Shown: piece by piece, positions 1,892-48,800 of the stretch | Position numbering within the stretch: position 1 is the first letter of the stretch | How the letters are laid out: each line of letters starts with the position of its first letter | From: Acorus gramineus | Lineage: Eukaryota; Streptophyta; Magnoliopsida; Acorales; Acoraceae | Assembly (NCBI GenBank): GCA_030737835.1 | Contig: JAUJYN010000026.1 | Coordinates: 1,534,507-1,598,506 of the forward strand | DNA length: 64,000 nucleotides | Reading direction: 5' to 3' | Position numbers and translations under genes: made by a program | The notes under the pieces: generated by a model | The model's database searches: none | The model's input: only the letters and a program-made list of their open reading frames with translations | Told to the model about the DNA's origin: nothing

Positions 1892-2561
1892 CAGTCAATT
1901 CTGCGCTGTTGAGGGACGTTGACCGGGGGACAACGAGCAATCTACTATGCCAGTAAAGCGTTAAATGGGGCAGAAACCAGGTATTCCCGCATCGAGAAAC
2001 TTGGGTTTGCCTTACTCATTTCTGCCAGCGTTAAATGGGGCAGAAACCAGGTATTCCCGCATCGAGAAACTTGAGTTTGCCTCACTCATTTCTGCCCGAA
2101 AATTACGCCATTATTTTCAAGCCCATTCGATCCATGTCGTCACCAACTCGCCTCTCAAGGCCTTACTACGAAAGACAAATGTTGAAGGGCGATTGCTGAA
2201 GTGGGCAGTGGAGTTATCTGCTTTTGATATCCACATCATCCCATGAATATGATCAAAGGGCAGGTGGTTGCAGACATCATCGCCGACCTCATGCCTGTCG
2301 AGCAACAGGTCTTCACCATCTTCGACTTCAGGCCAGTTCCTTGGACATTCCATGTCGATTGGGCGTCCAATCGAAGAGGGGCAGGAGCAGGGTTGATCCT
2401 ATGAAGTGAGGACGGATTTATGTTCGAACATGCGATCAAGCTTGGCTTCCACCAATGAAGCTGAATATGAGACCCTGATCGCACGTTTGGAGTTTGCTGT
2501 AGATCTCTCCGTGTGTAAATTAGTGATCTACAGTGATTCTCATCTTGTGGTTTGCTAGAGT
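1892..2561 (+). pseudogene. Tat-lineage Ty3/gypsy pol fragment: RNase H and archaeal-type RNase H (left half)
   Basis: Broken reading frames encode a retroelement RNase H with KALNGAETRYSRIEKL and RLLKWAVELSAFDIHI, which are typical of the plant Tat lineage. From about 2240 a second, archaeal-type RNase H follows, with WTFHVDWASN and NEAEYETLIARLEFA. Two RNase H domains in series are characteristic of Tat elements. The frame is destroyed by a 70-bp tandem duplication (1957-2096) and by in-frame stops. The domain is cut at 2561 by the solo LTR at 2562-15524 and resumes at 15525 in the same orientation. No functional product is expected. Confidence 0.85.
1957..2096 (+). repeat. 70-bp tandem duplication inside the Tat RNase H
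   Basis: Two copies of a unit beginning AGCGTTAAATGGGGCAGAAA start at 1957 and 2027. They differ at only a few bases. The 70-bp period is not a multiple of three, so the duplication shifts the RNase H frame. Confidence 0.9.
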
Positions 2562-3108
2562 TGTTATACCTGTGTCATTTGGAGCTTTATATTTTTCGAT
2601 CGGAGTTGCTAAAATTTTGGTTTTTAGCTACATGCGGGAGTTGGAGTACTCTGATTGAAAATCTAACTGCATATTATGGGTCCTGGTACCATTTTGTACT
2701 ATCCATAAAAATTTCATCGAATTCTGGTAACGTTTTAAAAAATATACAGTTCCGAACTGTATCCGGGTTTTGAGTGTTCTTGGTTTGGTTGGTCGAATAG
2801 TGTTAGATATTTTGGTGAATATGGTGACCTTTGGTAACCTCACCCTGCTTGCTTAAGGGTTAAGCAACCTTTGGTTATTTTTGAGTGTTAGAGGGTGAGA
2901 AAAGGCTTAAGTTCACCCCCCTTTTCTTTCCTTCTCATCACCCCCTCAAGTGAGAAAAATCCCTCACTCTCTTACTCTCTCTCACTCTCGTCTCCCTCTC
3001 CCTCTCCCTCTCTGTTTTTTGTGTGTGTGTGTGTGTGTTTTTAAAGGAGGAAAAGAAGAAAAAGAAGCAGTAGAGAGAGTGAAAAAGGGTGAGTGTGTGT
3101 GTTGTTGT

Positions 3109-5003
3109 TGTCACGCCCCAGGGCGACCGTCCCCGAAACGCGGCAAGTGTATATATGATATCAGCAGTCTATACAGGAGGTCAATAATATACCCTAAACA
3201 ACATCAATAATAACAACACTGAAAACAATGAGGCTGACATGATATATACACAAATAGCGGAAGCTAAAAGACTGAATCTGTAAATCAAAGACATATTACA
3301 GACTCGATACATAATCAACTGTCATGTGAGAGCCAATATATACAACGACATCCAAATATAATACAAACACGTGCCCAAGCGCGGAATATAATACATACAA
3401 TCAAAAGGGATGCTAATAGCCTCTAAAACTCGCGGGACGTGGCGCTGCTCCGCTACTGATGAAGTCACCGGGGAGCTCCTCCTCTAGATCCGACTCAGAT
3501 AACACTGGAGAATAATAATTATGCGAGGGGTGAGCCACACGCTCAGTGAATAGCACAACCCATGCATCACAGTTTATATTAACCACAATAATCATTCAAG
3601 CCTCAAAGTGCCAAGAACTAAACAATCCAGTGGGTCGCTATCTCGCCGACCCACTACACCCTCACCCTCACCCCTCAATATGGTGACATAAGATATTGGG
3701 ACTGACTACACAAATCTAGCGGGTCGCTACATCGCCAACCCACTACACCCTCACCCTCACCCCTCAATATGGTGACATAGGATATTGGGACTGACTAGGC
3801 TGTTGGTCACCCTTGGTCCACCGATAGTCTCTCCTCCACTCCGTAGCCGCTTGGACACTCCCACATTCAGTACAGTCCGTCCCAAATCAGGAGGTGCCTA
3901 CTGATGGGAGCCCTCTCACGGGACGGCCTATCTAACGCTGGGGCAGTCTCTACACGGATCCAACGAAGGAAACAGAACAGCCTATCCATACGCATATGAT
4001 CCACTCGGATCCGCCGACAACACATCTCAACAACTCTAATGTCATGAATTCTTCAGAATTCCTCCAGGGCGCATAACCAAGATGCGGGGAACATATAATA
4101 CAATTACAAGGATATAATATTATTGGGAAAAGAAACCTTGAGAGGGCAGCATGAGGTCCCGATATAGGACATCCCGACAACCAAACAAGGAACACGGAGT
4201 ACCCTAGCCCGGGTCTCAATGTTGACCTCGCAAGGCCCCTCCCTATAATATTATCTAAGACATGCTAATAATCATATGCTAGCATTTAATTTAATAAATT
4301 AAACTAGTTGGACATATGCATGGTCGAGGCTTCCTAGCATGAGAACAGGGTAACAGGATGCATGGCTCTTACACATATCCTAAGGGTGCAAGTCCCTAAC
4401 ATACACGGTCTAGGGTAGCATGCATACTACATTTTAATCATGCTTGCATGGATTACACATTACACAAGTTAATATTAACCATGGTGCCCCAGGGGAGGAC
4501 GGTATACGCCCAAGTGCATATAGCGCCTCCCTACTGGGTTGGATTGTCCCACTCACCGATAGCCGGGTCGTCTCGCGACCGTCTGTCAGAATCTGCAAAA
4601 TAGGGTAATCAATTCGGTGAGTAAAATACACAAATACACCAAAAATACTCTAAAAATACACAACACTCGGGCAAACGTACATACGGCCTGTACGCACGCG
4701 AGCCCGAGCACCCCGGCTCACTCGACCCCCCGGGCAGCCGTACGCACGCCCCCGGGCAGCCGTACGCAGGGCCATACCAAAAATTCTGAAACGTTACTAG
4801 AATCCGATGAAATTTTCGTGAGTGGCTTGGAATGGCACCAGGACACATAATATGCAGTTAGATTTTCAATCGGAGCCCTCAAACTCAGGGTGATAGCTAA
4901 AAGCCCAAAATTTTAGCGGTTCCGATTGAAAAATGAAAAAACCCGAAAACTGCCAGAATGTCCCAACGGTTACTAGAAGGTTAAAAGTGACACATATATA
5001 ACA
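3109..5003 (-). mobile_element. Reverse-oriented solo LTR, type I-a, with internal deletion; target duplication GTTGT
   Basis: The segment starts TGTCACGCCCCAGGGCG (reverse complement of an a-type tail) and ends CACATATATAACA (reverse complement of a type I head). GTTGT flanks it at 3104-3108 and 5004-5008. The LTR at 45875-49220 is the same type but about 1.45 kb longer. The present copy lacks most of the GC-rich block, and its remnant is at about 4690-4770. It carries two copies of the hairpin-bearing minisatellite (about 3630-3790). Confidence 0.93.
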
Positions 5004-6440
5004 GTTGTTGTTGTAGTTGTTGTTGTTTCTCTTCTCTCTATGTCCCTCTCATTCCCCCTTCACACCCCTGTTTTCAGCGATGAAGGGCTTGAGGAGATGC
5101 TGATGAGGTGGTGGTAGTGGTGGTTGAGGTGGTCGTGGGTGTGTCGAGAACCCCGCATCTCCCCATTTCCCTCCCCCTCTTTTGGTAAGGCAGATCTCTG
5201 TCTTGTAAAGATATCTGTGTAACTAGTAAGTAGAGGCATATTTTTGGGTTTGTGTCTTCATGTGATATGATCATCTATGTGTCTAGTTGTTATATATGAA
5301 ATTTAGGGTCATTATGATATCTGTGTTGTATGTTAGAACCTGTTTTACATGGCCTGTCCAGATTCGCGTGGGAATTGACCTGCTTCTGGAAATAATTTAT
5401 TTTGGGCTTGTAGAAGCAAGATTAAGTTATAATGTTATCATGGATTATGATCCCAACAAGTTAGAGAATGTGTATGATTTATTTCATAATTTTTGGATGT
5501 GTATTTGACGCCGTGGAGATCAATTAGTAGGGCTGGTTGCAGCAAGTTTAGCAGTTTTGCTCGATTGTGTGTCAAGGAGTTGTTATGCATGTTGTGGAAA
5601 GTTTCAGGAGTTAGGGTCTTCATGAAGTAGGCTTATATGTGTGTCACGAGGTTCCATATTTTTATTGTGGATCATTGGTTGTGTTTTGCAGCTCTCGTAG
5701 ACCGGACGTGTGGCAATCCAGGTATCGGTGAGTAGTTTGATCCAACCCTTCTGGAAGCATTGGATGCACATAGACATGCATCGCGCATCCGTTGGGCACC
5801 CTGACTATACTACTTATTTAGATAAGTAGAATGGTCATGTCTAACCCATAATATGCTAGATATTTGCATGCTACGTTAGTTAGCTCGTATATTGTGTAGA
5901 ACCTCCTATTCTATCATATACTTGCCTATGTATCATATTCATGTCAGAATTATTATGTTGCATGCGCCCTTCGTGCATGGGCATGCGTGATGTGTGTTAA
6001 TATGAATGTATAGAATATGCATGCCTTAGGTAGTCTCTTTTTATAGTATTACCTCCCTATGTTAGTAATATCTAGCCTGATTAAATGTGTGTTAATAACC
6101 GGGTGCATACTTAATATTCCCTGATTATAAGACTAGAGGACGTGGTATGGTTGTTGCACTCATCTTGTTGGGAAAAAGCTATGACCAACTTCCGAAGAGG
6201 ATGAGACTTTCTCTTTCTCTCGCCCTCTCTTTTTGCGTAAACTGAGTAAGTAGATGTGGCTCCTACTTGACTCAGGTCCGCTTGGGATTATCGGCATGCA
6301 CCGGTTGGTGCGCGAGATTGCGCTTAACCCTTCCCTCTTAAGTTGGTGATACCCAACGCATATTAGGGTAATGCTTGTATGCGTGCATGCATATTATTTT
6401 AGGCCATGCCTAGTATGTATGTTATATATATATATATATA

Positions 6441-6999
6441 GAGTAACGATATGCTGCGGACGTGCGGACGAGGTCGCCGTGCGGATCTAATCTCGACCGT
6501 CCGATCGAGCACGATCGGACGGTCCAAAAAAAAAAAAAAAAAAATTCACTCGACGACTCTCTCTCTCGCGACTCTCTCTCTCTCTCTGACTCTGTCTCCC
6601 CTCTCTCGAAAAAAAAAAACACGGACGACCTCTCTCTCGCGACTCTCTCTCTCTCTCTCTAACTCTCTCTCCCTCTCTCGACTCTCTCTCGACTCTGTCT
6701 CCCTCTCTCGACTCTCTTTGCCGGCGACCATCGGCGAGCACCCGCGACCACCCGCGACACCCGCGAGCATCGGCGACCACCCGCGAGCATCGGCGACCAC
6801 CCGCGACCATCGGCGAGGTTGAGCTCTCTGTCTCTCTCTCTCTCTCTCTCTCTATGATTAGGGTTTTTATCTAGGGTTTGTGATGTTTAGGGTTTCATCC
6901 TTTAGGGTTTGTGATGATTGGGTGTTTTTTTATCTAGGGTTTTTGGTGATTGGGGTTTTTCATCTAGGGTTTGTGATGATTGGGGATTTTTTATGTCTT
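6441..6999 (+). repeat. Left terminal inverted repeat of the MULE
   Basis: From the outer end inwards it holds a unique ~80-bp segment, a poly-A run, CTCTCTCGCGACTCTC-type microsatellite, a second poly-A run, repeats of CACCCGCGA and CATCGGCGA (about 6725-6815), a CT run, and a block with many AGGGTTT motifs (about 6858-6985). The order matches the complement of 13301-13839 with small length changes in the simple repeats. Confidence 0.92.
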
Positions 7000-7746
7000 G
7001 AAAAAATATTTTTATCTTGATTGGGGATAATGGTAATAGATTATTTTTTTCTATCTTGATCTGTACTTGAATAATCATTTGGATATTGTTATTTTTGATA
7101 GGCTTGTTGTATTTGACGATAATCCATTCATGTTTCAAAACATTAAGAATTTACTAGTGATAATATTACTTTTCTTGAAAGTGTTTTAAATTTGATCTAA
7201 ATATGACATTGTTCTTCCTATCTATTATGAAGGGCCTACCACTTTGCATTAAAAAAAAATAGCTTGTTACATTTTCTAATTGGACTCATCACTATTTTTA
7301 CTTTGCATTAAATAGCTTCTTGTTTCATTTTCTAATTAGACTCATCACTAATTTTTTTCATGCTCGGGGCATCTTAATTATTTTTTTTCTTGTGAATTTA
7401 ATTTTTGGATATTAGTTGACATTTTGAAAATTCTGGCATAGTTTTATTGGGATTTTTTCCAATCGATAAGAAATGTTCTGGATATTAGATCATTACTGCC
7501 CTGTTTTGTTGGTGGTATTCTATGCTAGATTTTGATTTCTTTCTGGATTAGATTTTGATTTTGATTTTAGAATTTGATTTCTTATCAGCAACACTTATGG
7601 CTCAAGGTAGACATACTTTATGTGTGGGGGCACTAAAAGCTTTTAATTCAGATAATGTGCTTATATTTCTTTATTATGTTATTATGCTTATACATAAAGT
7701 CGTTTTTTTCAGTTCCTACTGTGCAATTCGTTACCTATCATAGAAC

Positions 7747-8190
7747 ATGTCTGAAATGGCATCATCAAGCAACAAATATTCCTCCACAAACAAGGCTTGT
7801 GAACTGAGTTTCAAAAATAGAGTTTGCTATTGTCGGTGTAAAGCAGCCATAAAATGTTCTGAGTCTGATAAGAATCCAGATAAATTATACTACACTTGTA
7901 TGGGATTAAATGAGAGAAAATGTAAATTTTTTGAATGGGTGTATCCGTATAATGGTGTGGAATATGCAAACAAGCATGGTGAAGCTCTATCAATTCAAGA
8001 AGAATCATCAAGACAAGAGGTGGGAATTTCTTCTAATCAGTTTTCAAAACTGCAAAGCGAACTTGTGGAGCTCAAGACTGCCCAAGTTTTAATGAAGTCG
8101 GCTATAGAGGATATAAGGAGCATAATAAAACTTGTGTTTTTATTCTTACTTGTTGTAATTTGTGCAATTTTATTTAGAACAAATGTGTAA
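7747..8190 (+). CDS. GRF-type zinc-finger protein with coiled coil and C-terminal membrane segment (MULE accessory gene)
   Basis: An uninterrupted 147-residue frame. A GRF-type zinc finger spans residues 27-65: the cysteines are C29, C31, C51 and C59, with the family's KFFEW motif after the last one (59-64). A helical, coiled-coil-like stretch follows (about 95-122), then a hydrophobic segment FLFLLVVICAILF (131-143) with only four residues after it, consistent with a tail anchor. Known: GRF fingers bind nucleic acid and many plant GRF proteins share this small finger/coil/anchor plan. Inferred: it is a passenger or accessory gene of the MULE, since it lies between the TIRs and converges on the transposase gene about 2 kb away. 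The start is the first ATG after in-frame stops, and a second ATG lies three codons on. Upstream introns are possible but not shown. Confidence 0.8.
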   Translation: MSEMASSSNKYSSTNKACELSFKNRVCYCRCKAAIKCSESDKNPDKLYYTCMGLNERKCKFFEWVYPYNGVEYANKHGEALSIQEESSRQEVGISSNQFSKLQSELVELKTAQVLMKSAIEDIRSIIKLVFLFLLVVICAILFRTNV

Positions 8191-10209
8191 CTTTTATTCA
8201 TATTGTAATCATTTTGAATATTAGTTTAGATTATGCAATGTTGTGGGTTCTGATCTTGTACTGAAACTTGATGGTTCAAATTATGTAATTAATAGAAGGT
8301 GTTAAGTAGATTATGTAATGAATGGATGGTGTTGTGTTGGTTTTGATTTTGTCATTCAAGTAAGCTTTGTTATTCATTGATACCTTAGCCATGCTTTCAT
8401 TTTCAGTGTTTTGGTTCTTTATATTATATTATATTGTTTCCACATATTTGCTCTGAGAGCTGAAACAATGGTGGGGGATTGGAAAATGTATGTTCAAAGA
8501 CTAAATGGAATGAGTTCAAAGCATGTTTTGATACTGCCAAGGACTGCGCAGATAAACCCAGAATTAAATTGGGATGAAAAATAAATAAATGAGTTCAAAA
8601 CATTGTCATTCTTGCTAATCACTACCATTACATGAGTTCAAAGCAGAAAGAACAATGGCAGCAGCAGAAGCAATAGCAGCAACAATAGCAGCAGGAGCAA
8701 GGGCAGCAGGTGCAGCAGCTCCAGTTGCAGCACCACAAGAAGCAGGAGCTGATCACGTCTTTTGATAGTAACATGATGTTTTCTTTCATCAGGGACAACA
8801 GGTTACTTGTTGTGCCAGATCCCATAGTTGTGGATCTTAGTCGGGTTCTTCTCAAATATCTAAACAAACAGAATGGGAGGAGAAAATGGAAAAGCATGCA
8901 ATCAATTTTCACAATGTGTCAATGTGTAAAGGACCTAAACTGATTGTAAAAATAAACTCAAGTAAACATGAATCGACAGGACCTTTCTCCCAAAAATAAA
9001 CGACAAGACAATTTGGAAATATTTACCAGTACCATTAAATTCAGACCAGCAGATGATGATCACTTTTGAAATACACAGATAAAAATACATATTCATAATT
9101 TCATATCACTTTTATGTATTCATCAGCCTCCCAAATACCTCATGAACATGTCAGGTTATCATATATTGGGACCACCTTACATATGAAGCCTACGTCCTAG
9201 AGGTGAACCACCTGTGAGAATAAATGACTGGCTCCAAGAATTGCTGCCTAGTTTTTCATTCATTGAAGAAAACAAAACAATGCTGCAAACAGTAAGCACA
9301 AAATCCTGTGTCTTAAGGGCTAACAGAACAATCCAAAAAGTCATAACTTCAACCTAGTGAAGCACATCAATTAAACCATGCCTGGTTCCCAAATTCAAGG
9401 ACATAAAGTAAGTACCCCTAAGGGGCCGTTAATGCACACGAATGACTGACTTGTACAATGCTCATCATCTTAAAGGGTGTCAATGCCAGAACAATTAAAG
9501 AAATGGCTACTCTCCATGCCCCAACAAACCAAAACTCAAAAAGTCAATTAGATTTCAAGCACAAAGGTGAAACCAACTGACACTACATAGATTCTAGAGT
9601 CCAAGGTTCTTTTTCCCTGACATTCAAACCAGCGAGAGCAGGAGGAGCAGGAGCATCAGCAGCAGGAGCAGCAGCAGCAGCAGGAGGAGCAGCAGGAGGA
9701 GCACTATGAGGAGGAGCTGCAGCAGCAGCAGCAGCAGGAGCACTAGGAGCAGGAGCAACATGAAAATGAAAATTTGTACAAGCATCAATGCAGGGAGTCA
9801 TGTTTTGTTCAAGTTTGTAACGAATACAAGAAATTCACTTAAGCCAACGGAGAGAATACATTGTTGATCAGGTAACAAATTATACCTTGTGCTTTGCCAC
9901 CTTAAGATCCATCTCCACAATCGATGGATACCCAACGAGTACCTCGAACGATCAGACTCAGACCTTGTTACTCTAGACCATAAGAAGCAAGTTACAATTC
10001 AAATAAAAAAAACATACACAATATTTTCAAATAGCAAAAATGATTGAAATCAATAGTTTGTAGGTACCTCACAAAATGGCGGAATTTTGGGTGTCTCTAT
10101 ATACCGAGGATTCTTATTGTGTGTTTCGTGCTAACCTGAAAAATATCAATTGTATCAACAAATTTAAAAAAACATATATCAATCTTAATAGAGAGTGTTT
10201 AATTTAATC
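8191..10209. other. Intergenic interval of the MULE between the convergent genes
   Basis: No intact gene is seen. Two GCA/CAG-rich trinucleotide tracts lie at about 8643-8760 and 9630-9770. They open short alanine- or glutamine-rich frames in several phases and look like microsatellites. On the minus strand, segments about 10068-10133 and 9904-9970 are bounded by acceptor-like TTTTTCAG and donor-like GAG|GTACC signals, so they could be 3' untranslated exons of the transposase gene. That is only inference. Confidence 0.5.
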
Positions 10210-12375
10210 TTACATTTCTTTCAACATCGGACAACTCCTTTTGTTATGCTTCTCTTTCTTGCCACACATGCTACACGTTCTCCTTTGCTTTTCCTTCTCC
10301 TCCATTGCTAATTCCATTCCCCCCTTCAACCTTTTTCCACTTCCTTTGGTCTTCGAAATGTTTGGAGGTCGGACATCTATGGAGGAAGGGATTGACATCG
10401 TGTTCCATGTTGTTGGATCATTGCTACCACACGCACTAAGTGATTCTTTCTCTTTTTGAAGAGAATACACGAACTCCTTTGCTTTGTTGTATACTTCAGA
10501 AGGGGCATTGTTCAAACAATTAGCAAATGCACGTACAAGCTCAATGTTTCTTCCCCCTAAATGTGTGCTTTGGCTTTCTCGAAGCTCCACGCCATCAAAA
10601 TCAAACACACACTTATCTTTGGCTATCATTGTCCAACGCTGGAGAATAAGATATTCAGGCAACTCATCAATGAAATCATTTCTCAACACAACAAGCATAT
10701 GTGCACATGGAATTCCTTCGCTCTCAAATTTTTTACACGTGCAAAGAAGTGTATCATTTGATGGATCATGTATAACTTCATGCGTTCTACTGATTTCCCC
10801 CAATCTTTTGACAACATGCACCTCTGGAGGGCCAAAAGATTTTGACCCATACTTCAAAGAGGCTTGAACCTCTTCTTGAAAAATATGGAAGACTTCTTTG
10901 GTGTACCTTTTCGACATTTGCATTTCAATGGAAAGGGGAGTAACGAGATCGGGAGTTTTATAAAGTGACTCATGATCTGCAACTAATTCATTATACCTCT
11001 GACGTTCAAGTGCCCTTTGTAGATGATGAGCAAACTCGACCAAACTGTCTTTCTTATTCAAGAACCTATCGAAAAATGCATTCTGACTCTCACCACGCTG
11101 AGTACTTCTCATCCCTGCCATGAAAATGTGATTAAGAAATGCTGGGATCCACTTCTCACGATTCCTGTACTGTTTAGATAACCATTCATTAGAATTCAAG
11201 GAAAATTGTGTTATTATTTGCTTCCATGCCTCCTCAAATTCCTCAGGAGTCTCTGACCCAAAAATACATTTCTTGAAAGACATCAGAAAATCGGATCTGC
11301 AAGACAATGCACCCACTTTTTCTGGTAACTTCTTCATTATGTGCCAAATGCAAAACCGATGACAGGTATCTGGTAGCATTCTCGCAATTGCAGCAGCCAT
11401 AGCAGGGTCTTCATCTGTAATAATAGCCTTCGGTGCACATCTTCCCATTGCATCTTGCCATTTTGTAAACAACCACACAAATGACTCAGTTCTTTCATCT
11501 TTCAAGATTCCACAACCAAGAGAAATGGACTGAAAATGATGATTAACTCCGGTGAATGGTGCAAAAATTAAGGAATATTGGTTGGTTTCATAAGTTGTGT
11601 CAAACACAACTACATCACCAAAGTGACCATAAGCCTTCCTTGCACCACCATCTGCCCAAAAACAGTGTGTGAGCCGATTATCTTCGTCCACCTCATATGC
11701 AAAATAAAAAGAATGATTCATTTCAGCTTTTTCTTTAAAAGAATTAATAAACATCTGAGCATCATATTCTCTTATTTCATTCTGAATTCTTCCTTGGTAG
11801 TTTCGGATATCTCTTTCCGTACAACCAACTCTGTCATATCCTCCTGAATCCATCCCCAATATGGTCATCGTCTGTGAAGGGCCAACATTTGCTTCTCGAA
11901 AGGAATGAATCAAGGATTTTTGAGTACCGGTAACCTCTCTATGGGACCTCAGAAGATGTGTTTTACGAGGCGTTGATAATACATGAACATGACCCTCAAA
12001 AAAATCATGTACTATCCATTTCCCATCTTCAGTTTTCCAAAATTGTATTCTGGCCTTACACCCCACTCTTATATGTCCTCTATTTCTTATTCTGATTTGT
12101 TTATCAACATCTGTGTTTTTGAATCCTTCTTTTGCACAAACCATATCTCTTTTAATCAACTCTTCTGTGCCCTTACGATACTTAGTAGTGGATTTCCGAA
12201 CTCCAAATCCTGCTACTCTAGCATAAGAGGTATAAAATTTCTCTCCATCCTCAACTGTGTCAAAACACATTCCAATAACTGGTTTTACGTTATCATCAGT
12301 ATCTGGAATCCAAACCCCCTGTTCCTCAAATATCTGCTCAAAACTTTCAACTTCCTCTCCCACATTAATGCTCAT
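10210..12375 (-). CDS. FAR1/FRS-type MULE transposase
   Basis: An uninterrupted 721-residue frame that begins MSINVGEEVE and ends MLKEM before TAA. Domains in order: a FAR1-type DNA-binding zinc finger (about 36-135; C80, C106, H129, H131); a MULE transposase core (about 225-440) with FDTTYETN (D259), TDEDPAMA (D321) and RGESQNAFF (candidate catalytic E429); a SWIM zinc finger (C545, C547, C557, H559); and a C-terminal zinc knuckle (C701, C704, H710, C715). Known: FAR1/FHY3 light-signalling factors descend from such transposases. Here the gene sits between long TIRs, so I read it as an active-type transposase rather than a domesticated regulator. It lies convergent to the GRF gene. Length and domain order are normal for the family and no break is visible. 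Upstream non-coding exons may exist between 12376 and the right TIR. Confidence 0.92.
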   Translation of the reverse strand: MSINVGEEVESFEQIFEEQGVWIPDTDDNVKPVIGMCFDTVEDGEKFYTSYARVAGFGVRKSTTKYRKGTEELIKRDMVCAKEGFKNTDVDKQIRIRNRGHIRVGCKARIQFWKTEDGKWIVHDFFEGHVHVLSTPRKTHLLRSHREVTGTQKSLIHSFREANVGPSQTMTILGMDSGGYDRVGCTERDIRNYQGRIQNEIREYDAQMFINSFKEKAEMNHSFYFAYEVDEDNRLTHCFWADGGARKAYGHFGDVVVFDTTYETNQYSLIFAPFTGVNHHFQSISLGCGILKDERTESFVWLFTKWQDAMGRCAPKAIITDEDPAMAAAIARMLPDTCHRFCIWHIMKKLPEKVGALSCRSDFLMSFKKCIFGSETPEEFEEAWKQIITQFSLNSNEWLSKQYRNREKWIPAFLNHIFMAGMRSTQRGESQNAFFDRFLNKKDSLVEFAHHLQRALERQRYNELVADHESLYKTPDLVTPLSIEMQMSKRYTKEVFHIFQEEVQASLKYGSKSFGPPEVHVVKRLGEISRTHEVIHDPSNDTLLCTCKKFESEGIPCAHMLVVLRNDFIDELPEYLILQRWTMIAKDKCVFDFDGVELRESQSTHLGGRNIELVRAFANCLNNAPSEVYNKAKEFVYSLQKEKESLSACGSNDPTTWNTMSIPSSIDVRPPNISKTKGSGKRLKGGMELAMEEKEKQRRTCSMCGKKEKHNKRSCPMLKEM

Positions 12376-13300
12376 CTATATGAAATCAGACAACAAAAAA
12401 TTAGCAATTAAATCAATCATGTACTATCACATTCATGCACTGTCCATAGAGTTTACAAATTGAAAAGCAAGCAATTTTTTTTTTTTTAATTCAGTAAAAA
12501 CAGTTTTGGGTTTTTTTTTTAATGTGTGGATCTGACATAGCATGGTGAGTCTATATTTCTTAATTAACCCTTCCTCCTCCTAGTGATTTGAAATAAGCTC
12601 AACATGTTGTATGTGTAACTTTTCATATATTGTAGAATTAGAATACAGTGATTAGCTCAATTTTGAGAATTATGATTAGTCATTATAGATAATTGCATTT
12701 AAATAGTATGTAATACAAACATATTATAAGGTCTATGCTTGTTCGACGGTTTGGTCATTGAGAAATCTGTCAAGCTAGGACAGCAGAAACACAAAAATTT
12801 TATATTATCAACTATGACCGTAAAGTCAACTTGCAATTGATTCCCTGTAACTGGATATTAGGATGGCATGTGGTATTGCTGCTATATATTTATTATGTTT
12901 TTTTTTGCATAGTTCATTTTTGATGTACATACATTTCAATGGTTGCATCTGTTCTATCATTTTATCCATAAGAAAGGCTAATATTGATTTTCTACCTTGA
13001 ATTTGTGGCGCTCGGTTCTGCTGCTCCTCACTTCTATCTGCTAAAGGGGGTAAGTCTAAATTGTGTCCATCACTTACTGTGTGATCATATTTTTGTAAAT
13101 TTGTAGGGATACAACTGACATTGTGTTATTGAAAATCACTAAAAACTCCTCCAGCCGATATTTCATGATGGAACAAAAGAGTGGAGCTGTTGCAAGCAGT
13201 TAGGGTGCTCATAACACAGATTTTAGCATTTTTTCAAGACATACATTTTTTCCAAAGACAGATTTGAACATGAGGTTTATTCTTTTTTGTTTTTTTTTTG
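12376..13300. other. MULE interval upstream of the transposase gene
   Basis: AT-rich sequence between the transposase start and the right TIR, with T/A runs near 12474-12520. It should hold the promoter and 5' leader of the transposase gene, but I cannot place a TATA box or splice sites with confidence. Confidence 0.4.
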
Positions 13301-13839
13301 AAGACATAAAAAATCTCCAATCACCAAAAACCCTAGATAAAAAATCCCCAATAATCACAACCCTAGATGAAAAACCCCAATCATCACAAACCCTAAAGGA
13401 TGAAACCCTAAACATCACAAACCCTAAAGGATGAAACCCTAAACATCACAAACCCTAGATAAAAACCCTAATCATAGAGAGAGAGAGAGAGAGAGACAGA
13501 GAGCTCAACCTCGCCGATGGTCGCGGGTGGTCGCCGATGCTCGCGGGTGTCGCGGGTGGTCGCGGGTGCTCGCCGATGGTCGCCGGCAAAGAGAGTCGAG
13601 AGAGGGAGACAGAGTCGAGAGAGAGTCGAGAGAGGGAGAGAGAGTTAGAGAGAGAGAGAGAGAGTCGCGAGAGAGAGGTCGTCCGTGTTTTTTTTTTTCG
13701 AGAGAGGGGAGACAGAGTCAGAGAGAGAGAGAGAGTCGCGAGTGAATTTTTTTTTTTTTTTTTTTTTTTGGGACCGTCCGATCGAGAGATTAGATCCGCA
13801 CGGCGACCTCGTCCGCACGTCCGCAGCGTATCGTTACTG
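13301..13839 (-). repeat. Right terminal inverted repeat of the MULE
   Basis: This is the inverted counterpart of 6441-6999. The outer ~75 bp match the left end with few changes. The inner part (about 13330-13475) carries repeated AAACCCTA motifs and holds an extra copy of a GGATGAAACCCTAAACATCA unit compared with the left repeat. Confidence 0.92.
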
Positions 13840-15524
13840 TATATATATATATATATATATATATACTGTTTATGTTTTATCCATGTTAGGAAGTATCCCT
13901 ATAATTAATTGTTATGTTATCGTGCATGTAAGTTCATGTACATAACTATGATATAATTCTACTGTAATGTATATGCGCATGTTAAAACTGATTAGGCCTA
14001 TCTGAAATAGGTGTGGGTATGACCTGCCTGTCGGGTTGTACCTTATTAGTTAGAGCGCTAGCGATGTAATCGCTCCTGTGCATTCGAGCGATGCACTCGA
14101 TTGGAATTCAGGAGAATTTGTTATCTTATCGATTTTGTTAAGCTGGTAGTTATGGAATTAAGCTAGGCCTACCCATGTTAGGCGAGTGTATGAACCGTCT
14201 GTGGGGTTGTGCCTTAGGGCTTATGTCTGCGCGAGAGCAGAGGTAACTCCTTGCGTCCGAGCGACGCATCTGTGTGGGAGTTCAAGAGTATTTGATATCA
14301 TTGGTATGTGATTATCGAGAGTAGTTGACTTTCCATTGGGTTCACTTTACGAACGTGGAGTATTTTCCTCCCAATATCGTCCATGTTGAAGCAGCCCGGG
14401 TTGTAGCTGTCCTGACAGAGGGCCCCCATCTGTAGGTACTATCGATGCATGCGGCAAGATGTACTGATCATGGGAGTATACCAGGTAGAGGCTACCTGGG
14501 AGAGGGCTAACGAATGATATTGCGAGCATGGAATCGTTCTCCTCTTCGTCGGATTCTTGTCGATGCTGTCTGGTGTTGTAGCTGTCCTGACAGAGGGCCC
14601 CCACCTGTAGGTACTATCGATGCATGCGGCAAGATGTATCAAACATGGGAGTATACCAGGTAGAGGCTACCCGAGAGAGGGTTACCGGATGACGAAGGGT
14701 GTAGAGCAATCGGATTTATCACAAAAGTCCCTAGGGCCACCCCTCCGAGGGCTAGGGTGAGGAAGAGTTGAAGTCACGTTGTCACGTGACTCTTATACCC
14801 ATCGAGTATACTTTGGGTATGTTCCTCCTAATGCTTGAGGTATCAAAGTATATCTCTACCTCGTAGCGGATGGACTCGTTGTAACTGTTATCCAGTAATA
14901 CCAAGTGTTATGGTTAACAGTTATTTCCTCCCCGAGTGTCCCAAAAGCCTCCCTCTGGGGAGTGAGGGCGAGCGCGAGGTTCGGTCGCGCCGTTGCGTGA
15001 CCTTGTTATCCATTGGGTTTCTACCTATGTTTTTTTTTCTTGAAAGGAAATTGCCTTAGTATTGAATTGTTATAATAGTGTTTAGTTTCCAGCCACTCAC
15101 TGAGCTTGTAGCTCACCCCTCGCATACTGTTTCTTTTTCAGGGGCAGTGTTGGGCATGGAGCTGAAGCTTCTTTGTGGCGGGGTTCGAGTGCGTGGAGTG
15201 TCCCGTCCGGTGATTGGCGAGTGCGAGGATGTCAGCAGTCCTAGAGTCATTTATGTATTTGAAATCGTGCGTGTTGCACTGGTTGTACTTTATTTGGACC
15301 AGACTTGGCTCTCACAGGACAGTGATTGTGTATTCGAGTCTGTAATAATATTTTTGGTTTATAAACTTATTGATATTTAATAATGTTTTTAGTTGAACTA
15401 TCAGTTATCATTGTTTTGCCAGCTTTGTGTGTTATTTATTGGAGTCGTTGTTAACCTCTTGTACTTGATAGCTGATACTTTATATATTACCACGTCTCGA
15501 GGAAGGCCGCCCTGGGGCGTGACA

Positions 15525-23445: not shown

Positions 23446-23825
23446 CAGTCCCAATATCCTATGTCACCTATTGAGGGGTGAGGGTGAGGGTGTGGTGGGT
23501 CGGCGATGTAGCGACCCACTGGATTTGTGTAGTGATGATTATCAGCCTAATCAGTCCCAATATCCTATGTCACCTATTGAGGGGTGAGGGTGAGGGTGTG
23601 GTGGGTCGGCGATGTAGCGACCCACTGGTTTGTAAGTCCCAATATCCTATGTCACCTATTGAGGGGTGAGGGTGAGGGTGTGGTGGGTCGGCGATGTAGC
23701 GACCCACTGGTTTGTGTAGTTGTGGACCATGGATGATTAACAGCTTAGTAAGTCCCAATATCCTATGTCACCTATTGAGGGGTGAGGGTGAGGGTGTGGT
23801 GGGTCGGCGATGTAGCGACCCACTG
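23446..23825 (+). repeat. Hairpin-bearing minisatellite, four units
   Basis: Four copies of a ~77-bp core (AGTCCCAATATCCTATGTCA to GCGACCCACTGG) start near 23446, 23552, 23635 and 23749, with spacers of unequal length. Each ends with GTGGGTCG, 9 bases, CGACCCAC. Related reverse LTRs carry about three units (46400-46625) and two units (3630-3790). Confidence 0.85.
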
Positions 23826-24348
23826 GATTTGTGCAGTTCCTGCCACTTTGAGGCGTGAATAATAAAATTGTGGTTAATATAAATTGTGATGCATGGGTTG
23901 TGCTATTCACTGAGCGTGTGGCTCACCCCTCGCATATATTATTCTCCAGTGTTGTCTGAGTCGGATCTGAAGGAGGAGCTCCCCGAGGGACTTCATCAGT
24001 AGCGGAGTAGCGCCACGTCCCGCGAGTATCAGAGGCTATCAGCATCCCTTTTTGATTGTATGTATTATATTCCGTGCTTGGGCACGCGGTTGTATTATAT
24101 TTGGATGTCGTTGTATATATATTGGCTCTCACAGGACAGTTGATTATGTATCGAGTCTGTAATATGTTTTTGAATTACAGACTCAGTCTTTTAGCTTCTG
24201 CTATTTGTGTATATATCCTGTCAGCTTCATGTTGTCTGTGTTGTCATATTGATGTTGTTTAGGGTATGTTATTGACCTCCTGTTTAGACTGCTGATATCA
24301 TATATACACTTGCCGCGTCCCGGGGACGCCCGGGGCGTGACAAAAAGT

Positions 24349-45874: not shown

Positions 45875-48800
45875 TGTCACACCCTGGGCGTCCCCGGGAC
45901 GCGGCAAGTGTATATATGATATCAGCAAACAGGAGTTCAATAACATACTCACACAACAGCTAAAATGACAACACAGATAAAAGCAGGGCTGACATAATAT
46001 ATACACAAATAGCGGAAGCTAAAAGATTGAGTCTGTAATCCAAAAACATACTACAGACTCGATACATAATCAAATGTCCTGTGAGAGGCAATATATACAA
46101 AGACATCAAAACAATATACAAACGCGTGCACAAGCACGGAATATAAATAATACAATCAAAAGGGATGCTGATAGCCTCTGATACTCGCGGGACGTGGCGC
46201 TACTCCGCTACTGATGAAGTCCCTCAGGGAGCACCTCCTCTAGATCCGACTCAGATAGCACTGGAGAAAATAATTATGCGAGGGGTGAGCCACACGCTCA
46301 GTGAACAGCACAACCCATGCATCACAGCTTATATTAGCCACAACAAGATATTATTAGCCACAATTTATTAATCAAGCCACAAATGGCAGGAACTACATAA
46401 GTCCAGTGGGTCGCTATCGCCAACCCACTACACCCTCACGATCACCTCTCAATAGGTGACAAAGGATATTGGGACTAAACAAACCAGTGGGTTGCTATCG
46501 CCAACCCACTACACCCTCACCCTCACCCCTCAATAGGTGACATAGGATATTGGGACTTACAATCCAGTGGGTCGCTACATCGCCGACCCACCACATCCCT
46601 CACCCTCACCCCTCAATATGGTGACATAGGATATTGGGATTGACTAGGCTGATGGTCGCCCTTGGTCCACCGATAGTCTCTCCCCACTCCGTAGGCCGTT
46701 TGGCCACCCCCACATTCAGCACAGTCCGTCCCAAATCAGGAGGTGCCTATTGATGGGAGCCCCTGCACGGGACAGCCTTTCCAACGCCGGGGTAGTCTCT
46801 ACACAGATCCAACGAAGGGAACAGAACAGCCTATCCATCGCATATGATCCACTCGGATCCGCAGACAACACATCATAACAACTCTAATGTCATGAATTCT
46901 TCAGAATTCCTCCAGGGCGCATAACCAAGATGCGGGGAACATATATAATAATAATCATTAACAAGAGTTATAATTATAATTATTAACAAGGGTTATAATA
47001 TTATTGGGACAAGAAACCTTGGGAGGGCAGCATGAGGCCCCGATACAGAACATCCCGACAACCAAACAAGGAACACGGAGTACCCTAGCCCGGGTCTCAT
47101 TGTTGACCTCGCAAGGCCCCTCCCTATAATATTATCTAAGACATGCTAGCAATCAATTATATAATTTAAACTAGTAGGACGCATGCATAGGCTGAGGCTT
47201 CCTAGCATGAGAAGAGGGTGACATGATGCATGGCTCTTACACATATCCTAAGGGTGCAAGTCCCTGACATACAAAGTCTAAGGTAGCATGCATGCTACAT
47301 TTTTATCATGCTTGCATGGATTACACATTACAACAAGTTAATATAAATCCATGGTGCCCCAGGGGAGGACGGTACGCGCCCAAGTGCGTATAGCGCCTCC
47401 CTACTGAGTTGGATTGTCCCACTCACCGAAGACCGGGTCGTCGCGCGACCGTCCGTCAAGATCTGCAAAATAGGGTAATCAATTCGGTGAGTAAAATACA
47501 CAAATAAATCCAAAAATACATTAAATACACAATACTCGGACAAGCGTACATACGGCCTGTACGCACGCGAGCCCGAGCACCCCGACTCACTCCCGAACCC
47601 CCGGGCAGCCGCACGCACAGCCACCCGCCACGGGCGCACAGCCGAGCCCCGGCCCGCGCCCCCAGACGCCTTGTCGAGCCCAGCCCGCACGCCCGGACAC
47701 CCTGCCGAGACCTCCCGGGTGCACCGCGCGCTCCCTGCGCCCCAGCGCAGCAACCCGCGCGCACACCCGCACGCCCTGCGCCCCAGCGCCTCACCCCGCG
47801 CGCACCCCGCGCGCGCCACCCGCTCGCACCACTCGCTCGACCAGCCCTGGGTGCACCCGCACGCACAACGCCCCAGCGCAGCGTCCCGCACGCGCACCCG
47901 CCCGCACTGCGCCCCAGCGCAGCGCTCGCACACCTGCCCGCTCACACTCCCCGCTCGCACCGACTCCTCGCCCTGCGCGCACTACGCCCCCCCTGCGCAG
48001 CACCCGCACACCACCCGCTTGTCCACGCGCCCCTGCGTAGCGCTCCGTGAGCACACCGCGCACTGCGCCCAGCGCGCCCGACCGCACGCGCCCAGCGAGC
48101 CCGTCAGCACGCCCGCTTGTGCCTGCCTGCCTGCGCCTGACCGCCTGCGCCTGCCTGCCTGCGCGCGCCGCTGCCCGCATGCTTCCGAACCGAGCTCTAC
48201 CCGCGCGCACGCCCACAAGCACGCCCACGCTGCCCTGCCTGCGTCCGACAGCGCCCAGCCCTGACTGCCTGCCAGCCTACCCGGGACAGCCCACCACCCT
48301 GCCCAAGCCACCCTACCACCCCTCACCGTCCACCAATGGCCTCTAACCGCCTCCGACCACCACCAACGGCCACCCACAGCTACCCACAGCCACCCCAACT
48401 CAAAAACCTCCTCCTAACAAGCATCTAAGCAAGAAAGGAAGGAAAGAAGGCTTACCCAAGGAAAGAAAGGAAGAGAAGGGGAAGATCGGTTGCTCTCCGC
48501 GCACCGAAACACTTCCCCAAAGGCCACCAACACCAAGACCTCCCTCAGCCCCAAAACCAGCTGAAATCTGAGGAGAAAAGAGGGTGAGAGAGGGGGCAAT
48601 ACACACCGGAACTCGAATCCGAGACCACCGGTGGATAGATCGGGATGAGATCTAACCTTTCTCTTCTTTGTGCTTTTGATTTTAACCCCTCTAGCTAGGT
48701 CAAAATCAAGAAAAAGAGAGAGGGGGAGAGAGAAAATCAAGTGGGGAAGATGATGAATAGTGGGGGAGAAAAGATCTTGCTCACTTAAATAAGTTAATCC

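Follow-up and report, generated by a model that had tools for sequence, protein, structure and literature searches.

A FAR1-type element with two convergent genes

The genome sequence of Acorus gramineus, an early-branching monocot, contains repeated convergent pairings of a FAR1-type Mutator-like element (MULE) transposase gene with a second gene, whose predicted product joins a GRF zinc ribbon to a membrane segment at the C-terminus. The copy analysed here is, judging from its sequence, an apparently autonomous, young FAR1-type MULE, and we consider it highly likely that it is a FAR1-type Mutator-like transposon belonging to an old two-gene lineage. It occupies 7,399 bp (6441-13839) of the window, by which we mean the whole 64,000-nt stretch of DNA analysed (C64:1534507-1598506 of the 398.6-Mb A. 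gramineus assembly). The original prediction had placed an element with long terminal inverted repeats (TIRs) at 6441-13839, and we found the same boundaries, with termini GAGTAACGATA...TATCGTTACTG and (TA)n outside both ends. Because the copy sits in (TA)n, the target-site duplication of 8-11 bp typical of MULEs is unreadable in it. The TIRs are 88% complementary over 572 bp when length changes of their tandem repeats are counted, and their gap-free blocks of 235, 97, 74 and 72 nt reach 99%, 96%, 100% and 97%. The two frames between them, also predicted to be uninterrupted and convergent, are indeed open, one encoding FAR1, MULE and SWIM domains and the other the GRF protein. The features, in window coordinates, are:

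6423..6440, no strand: (TA)n tract adjoining the left end
6441..7006, plus: left TIR, ~550 bp, rich in tandem repeats; presumed GRF promoter and leader
7703..7712, plus: 3' splice-site-like TTTTTTTCAG, 5' of the GRF ATG; putative 5'-leader intron
7747..8190, plus: GRF gene, 147 aa with stop (Pfam; genome matches)
7822..7941, plus: GRF zinc ribbon, aa 26-65 (Pfam, alignments)
8119..8175, plus: C-terminal hydrophobic (membrane) segment, aa 125-143, inside the predicted helix of aa 96-146
8191..10209, no strand: spacer with CAG/GCA-rich low-complexity stretches
10210..12375, minus: FAR1-type MULE transposase gene, 721 aa with stop
10684..10749, minus: SWIM zinc finger, aa 543-564 (Pfam)
11329..11613, minus: MULE transposase domain, aa 255-349, holding D259 and D321; E429 lies beyond it
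11977..12240, minus: FAR1 DNA-binding domain, aa 46-133 (Pfam)
12376..12400, minus: putative 3' splice-site-like stretch, its TAG end abutting the transposase ATG
13294..13839, minus: right TIR; presumed transposase promoter and leader
13840..13865, no strand: (TA)13 tract adjoining the right end

Eight spacer and leader frames of the element were scanned and no Pfam family exceeded its cut-off, and we therefore rejected a third gene or a captured host gene in the spacer. The element is also not a Pack-MULE, which would hold host-gene fragments between its TIRs and no transposase, given that its transposase is intact. An Rfam scan over the window returned no match. Between the genes, a low-complexity stretch rich in CAG/GCA (9636-9757) recurs in the interiors of three related loci (L014, L018 and L019).

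The surrounding retroelements had been described as all broken, which is consistent with the frames examined: no other frame in the window exceeds 265 aa, and when five of the seven other frames of at least 200 aa were scanned, two matched retroviral-type pol pieces and three matched nothing. An ~80-bp tandem unit recurs at 3617-3797, 23447-23832 and 46403-46639, within repeated segments of ~1.1 kb that are probably parts of nested retroelements.

The transposase

The window transposase matches the Pfam families FAR1 (E 1.4e-20), MULE (PF10551; E 6.3e-29, 100.8 bits against a cut-off of 27.6) and SWIM (E 1.1e-5), and aligns along its length with plant FAR1-RELATED SEQUENCE 5-like proteins. Across a 10-sequence transposase alignment D259, D321 and E429, which we take to be the catalytic DDE residues, are invariant, and a C-terminal CxxC...H...C zinc finger is visible. 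The protein thus carries the N-terminal FAR1 domain, SWIM finger and C-terminal zinc finger that characterise the Jittery/FAR1-type subgroup. Comparison with the PDB by sequence gave no match, and the transposase alignment found no relative when run against contigs of prokaryotic genomes and of viruses.

The GRF protein

The second gene had been predicted to encode a GRF zinc finger with a C-terminal membrane segment. The segment is present, with a mean hydropathy of 3.03 across 19 residues. The zinc ribbon scores 22.1 bits in Pfam (E 1.6e-4), under the cut-off of 25.9; the GRF call is secured by its relatives, since all five divergent Acorus homologues scanned exceed this cut-off (27.5-43.0 bits). 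A profile built from 84 plant GRF proteins, which were retrieved by an alignment query, assigns the window GRF 31.2 bits, whereas none of 1,000 shuffles exceeds 8.3. A search of a large protein set with the single GRF protein left none of 8 candidates at E <= 0.001. Against the PDB by sequence, the protein matches a NEIL3 GRF domain (E 0.0012). NEIL3 GRF domains are likewise the closest folds, weakly (E about 0.5, probability 0.90-0.97), to a fold model of mean pLDDT 75.9 that places three strands at 32-64 and a helix at 96-146.

Cysteines 27, 29 and 51 are kept in all of 14 aligned GRF sequences, and cysteine 59 in at least 90%. All six divergent GRF proteins possess a hydrophobic segment, which lies at the extreme C-terminus in five, and only 24 of the 84 plant GRF database matches pass the hydrophobic-tail rule, several of the 84 being short or partial. 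An ATG-started frame of at least 147 aa arose in one of 1,000 random sequences of equal composition; the codon usage of the GRF frame is not distinctive, with 62 of 452 spacer windows scoring as high.

Copies and derivatives of the family

A genome search with the left end (query 6423-6600, containing 18 bases of the TA tract) returned at least 108 matching pieces, with the best 40 of 233 candidates scored; we fetched 20 loci (L009-L028), then 5 more (L029-L033). The checks proposed with the original prediction were further two-gene copies between matching TIRs and deletion derivatives with the same TIRs, and both were found. Two loci, L021 and L028, are complete like the window copy, with open frames and both TIR ends, and their GRF (98% and 99%) and transposase (99%) are nearly identical to those of the window. 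The derivatives are many. L012 retains an intact GRF, a transposase cut to aa 1-188 and both ends; L027 an intact GRF and a transposase cut to aa 1-24, a short end probe finding its left end only; and L023 an intact GRF and the left end, the remainder being N. Transposase sequence without GRF occurs in L011, L013, L016, L020, L030 and L032. L020 itself lacks a GRF and carries two inverted transposases (2133-4639 and 4837-6990), of which one is open (718 aa) and the other broken. Eight loci have TIRs related to the window element and match neither protein, forming non-autonomous families with unrelated interiors (L009/L010/L015; L014/L017/L018/L019; L022). L022 is a 354-bp miniature.

Of the 20 loci L009-L028, 14 have two clean ends, and TIRs are shared across the family as is characteristic of MULEs. 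Among the window copy and L009-L028, with L029-L033 left out, 34 of 36 ends abut a TA run of at least 12, compared to none of 5,000 stretches of 30 bp drawn at random from the 64-kb window. A GRF frame confined to this one copy, which would have spoken against the prediction, is not what we observed: a genome search with the GRF protein gave 99 matches, the most divergent at ~31% identity, and all nine at 97% identity or above are free of stops.

Age and frequency of the pairing

Linkage of GRF genes to other FAR1-type MULEs, a further check on the prediction, was found in sister and divergent families. Six divergent GRF loci of 5.7 kb each were picked before the transposase positions were known, and five of them (L044, L045, L046, L048 and L049) contain a convergent downstream FAR1-type transposase; L047 has none inside its 5.7-kb piece. 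L045 is complete, with an open transposase of 722 aa that is 77% identical to that of the window and an open GRF frame of 143 aa that is ~50% identical, and it encodes the annotated 'Protein FAR-RED IMPAIRED RESPONSE 1 [Acorus gramineus]' (100% over 688 aa). The sister element that holds it (L050) has TIRs of ~1.1 kb, (TA)11 and (TA)13 at its ends and both genes open. A representative of a third family, L052, combines a GRF gene with a broken, ~35% identical transposase between 140-bp TIRs, and this one copy is flanked by a 9-bp duplication, CCTCGATTC, read by eye, and does not lie in (TA)n. Families whose transposases are ~35-42% identical retain the convergent plan, and because both these and the sister element keep it, the pairing is old.

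Scanning the genome with the window transposase placed a GRF gene within 10 kb at 13 of 62 loci (the best 62 of 1,554 candidates), where 0.31 would be expected by scatter. Within this list GRF was present at 11 of 23 loci with transposase identity of at least 70%, at 1 of 36 between 52 and 69%, and at 1 of 3 below. The corresponding scan with the third-family transposase of L049 gave 20 of 107 loci against 0.53 expected (the best 111 of 1,223 candidates), and the two lists appear to have no locus in common. All 33 pairs among the 169 loci listed from both scans are convergent. Same-family copies are not independent events; the pairs nevertheless span several transposase families.

No GRF was detectable within 10 kb at 136 of the 169 listed loci (49 of 62 plus 87 of 107), and the pairing is therefore not a rule for all FAR1-type MULEs. 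A check with matches to Pfam GRF (PF06839) revealed no further partners of the listed transposases. The GRF-less loci include lineages with many uninterrupted transposase frames, and some FAR1-type elements would seem to amplify without GRF, unless the protein is supplied in trans or is too diverged to be detected.

Among the matches listed, one large transposase group at ~58-64% identity includes many frames without interruption, and no GRF could be detected near its members. Six relatives of the third-family transposase at 85-86% identity (C3:27725299, C7:14408143, C11:9256073, C67:403327, C3:16948122 and C7:102335) all have an open frame of 591 aa and no GRF within 10 kb, and are perhaps a recently amplified single-gene form. 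PF06839 also picks out a separate GRF group with 112-aa frames (C9:18994375, C10:4796509 and C32:6074468), which are not near third-family transposases.

Selection on both genes

Between the window element and L045, the GRF gene has dN 0.365 and dS 1.68 (dN/dS 0.22), compared to ratios of 1.38 and 1.50 in the shifted frames, and the transposase has dN 0.136 and dS 0.894 (dN/dS 0.15). As a dS of 1.68 is near saturation, the GRF ratio is only rough and the shifted-frame contrast is the better evidence. Close GRF pairs exhibit no clear constraint (L044-L045, 0.64; L048-L049, 0.76), their shifted frames being no higher, and near-identical GRF copies differ by 5 non-synonymous and 2 synonymous changes. 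The comparison with L045 indicates that both genes are under purifying selection between sister families.

Comparison with known systems

Jittery-group FAR1-type MULEs, as described in the available excerpts of PMC6446971, share with the window element an N-terminal FAR1 domain, SWIM or CCHC fingers and TIRs. In the table given there these elements have one ORF, duplications of 8 bp and TIRs 39-292 bp long, whereas the window element adds the convergent GRF gene and has TIRs of ~550 bp (~1.1 kb in L050). The single ORF of that subgroup gives way to two genes in the three complete copies and in the sister families. The original prediction had likened the plan to that of maize MuDR (mudrA/mudrB) with a different second protein. 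Both have a transposase and an opposite-strand second gene between long TIRs; the apparent difference lies in the product of this second gene, which in the window element is a GRF zinc ribbon carrying a membrane tail.

Convergent extra ORFs are known from MuDR and Abermu in the excerpted texts of PMC6446971 and PMC9168764. Abermu, from barley and other plants, likewise carries a gene on the opposite strand, ORFR, whose function is unknown and which evolves faster than the transposase; its transposase is nearest MuDR, however, ORFR is not called a GRF in the portion available, and 'FAR1' is absent from the text (PMC9168764). MuTAnT, TAFT and SaTar are (TA)n-flanked MULEs with many short end-sharing derivatives (PMC4486113, PMC5907723, in part). 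The AutoMuTAnT transposase is Jittery-like, as is that of the window element, but in the accessible part of PMC4486113 AutoMuTAnT has a single ORF, and its TIR search mask, GGGGTTTGCTAGAACA, is unlike GAGTAACGATA.

At4g04775-like plant GRF proteins resemble the window GRF in their zinc ribbon, helical stretch and, in many, hydrophobic C-terminal tail, yet they are only 15-28% identical to it (36 aligned proteins), and linkage to an element is what is seen in the A. gramineus genome. A GRF partner of MULEs was not found in the published literature searched, with subscription papers and repeat databases outside its scope. Precedents exist for FAR1-type MULEs, for convergent second genes and for MULEs flanked by (TA)n; the GRF partner appears to be new.

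Role of the GRF protein

We propose that each TIR would act as promoter and leader of the gene facing inward. A leader exon in the TIR is suggested by the inward reading of both genes together with the 3' splice-like sites before their ATGs; such a site also precedes the GRF ATG in L045, L046/L051 and L052. The transposase would excise and insert the element by cut-and-paste. GRF domains of NEIL3-type proteins bind single-stranded DNA, and the zinc ribbon of the element's GRF protein may similarly hold nucleic acid, probably single-stranded DNA. The tail would fix the protein to the ER or the nuclear envelope, perhaps together with the transposition complex. From the domain, tail, pairing and selection taken together, we infer that GRF may aid transposition while membrane-tethered. 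An accessory factor of the element, playing a part like that of mudrB in MuDR, is the reading we favour and consider probable; the membrane-tethered DNA-binding mechanism itself is put forward tentatively.

Other accounts of the GRF gene were considered. VANC of Arabidopsis VANDAL elements is an anti-silencing factor, and MULE second genes of that role are known. By analogy, GRF could counter silencing and stand outside the transposition reaction; its faster evolution compared to the transposase (dN 0.37 vs 0.14) is as might be expected of a factor in conflict with its host, but a C-terminal membrane segment would be odd for a chromatin-acting factor, and we regard such a role as unlikely. Chance capture of a host gene or fragment, as a Pack-MULE-like passenger without a role, gains some credit from the annotation of small GRF proteins as ordinary genes across many plants, from the lack of GRF at the majority of listed FAR1-type transposase loci, and from the frequency of gene capture by MULEs reported in the excerpted PMC9168764. 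Position and convergence are nevertheless constant in 33 of 33 listed pairs, with transposases down to ~35-42% identity, and the genes are not fragments but entire ~140-aa frames that include both zinc ribbon and tail; with a GRF dN/dS of 0.22 between sister families also counting against it, capture by chance appears decidedly improbable.

GRF might instead direct insertions to (TA)n, for instance through binding of melted TA repeats. Such a function would suit the 34 of 36 window-family ends and both ends of the sister L050 that abut (TA)n, and an ancillary system for microsatellite targeting has been proposed (PMC5907723, available portion). However, the third-family L052 has a GRF gene and is inserted outside (TA)n, at the 9-bp duplication of that one copy, which disfavours a (TA)n-targeting role, and AutoMuTAnT, an element with one ORF, also targets (TA)n (PMC4486113, in part). 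We accordingly hold this function to be very improbable.

Implications

FAR1/FHY3 genes descend from MULE transposases, and the two-gene unit offers a plausible account of the multiplying GRF-type genes in the A. gramineus genome. MULE second genes such as mudrB and Abermu ORFR have long been puzzling, and the literature searched, so far as its texts were available, names no recognisable domain in them. The combination of a nucleic-acid-binding domain, a membrane tail, purifying selection and deep pairing now makes second-gene function testable. More speculatively, At4g04775-like GRF proteins with a tail might be, or descend from, FAR1-MULE accessory proteins that are membrane-tethered, nucleic-acid-binding and long co-travelling. 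If true, GRF helpers would have accompanied a single branch of DNA transposons while its transposases diverged to ~35% identity, and the life cycle of a cut-and-paste transposon would gain a membrane-anchored step. The pairing also suggests a possible origin for a widespread and unexplained plant GRF gene family.
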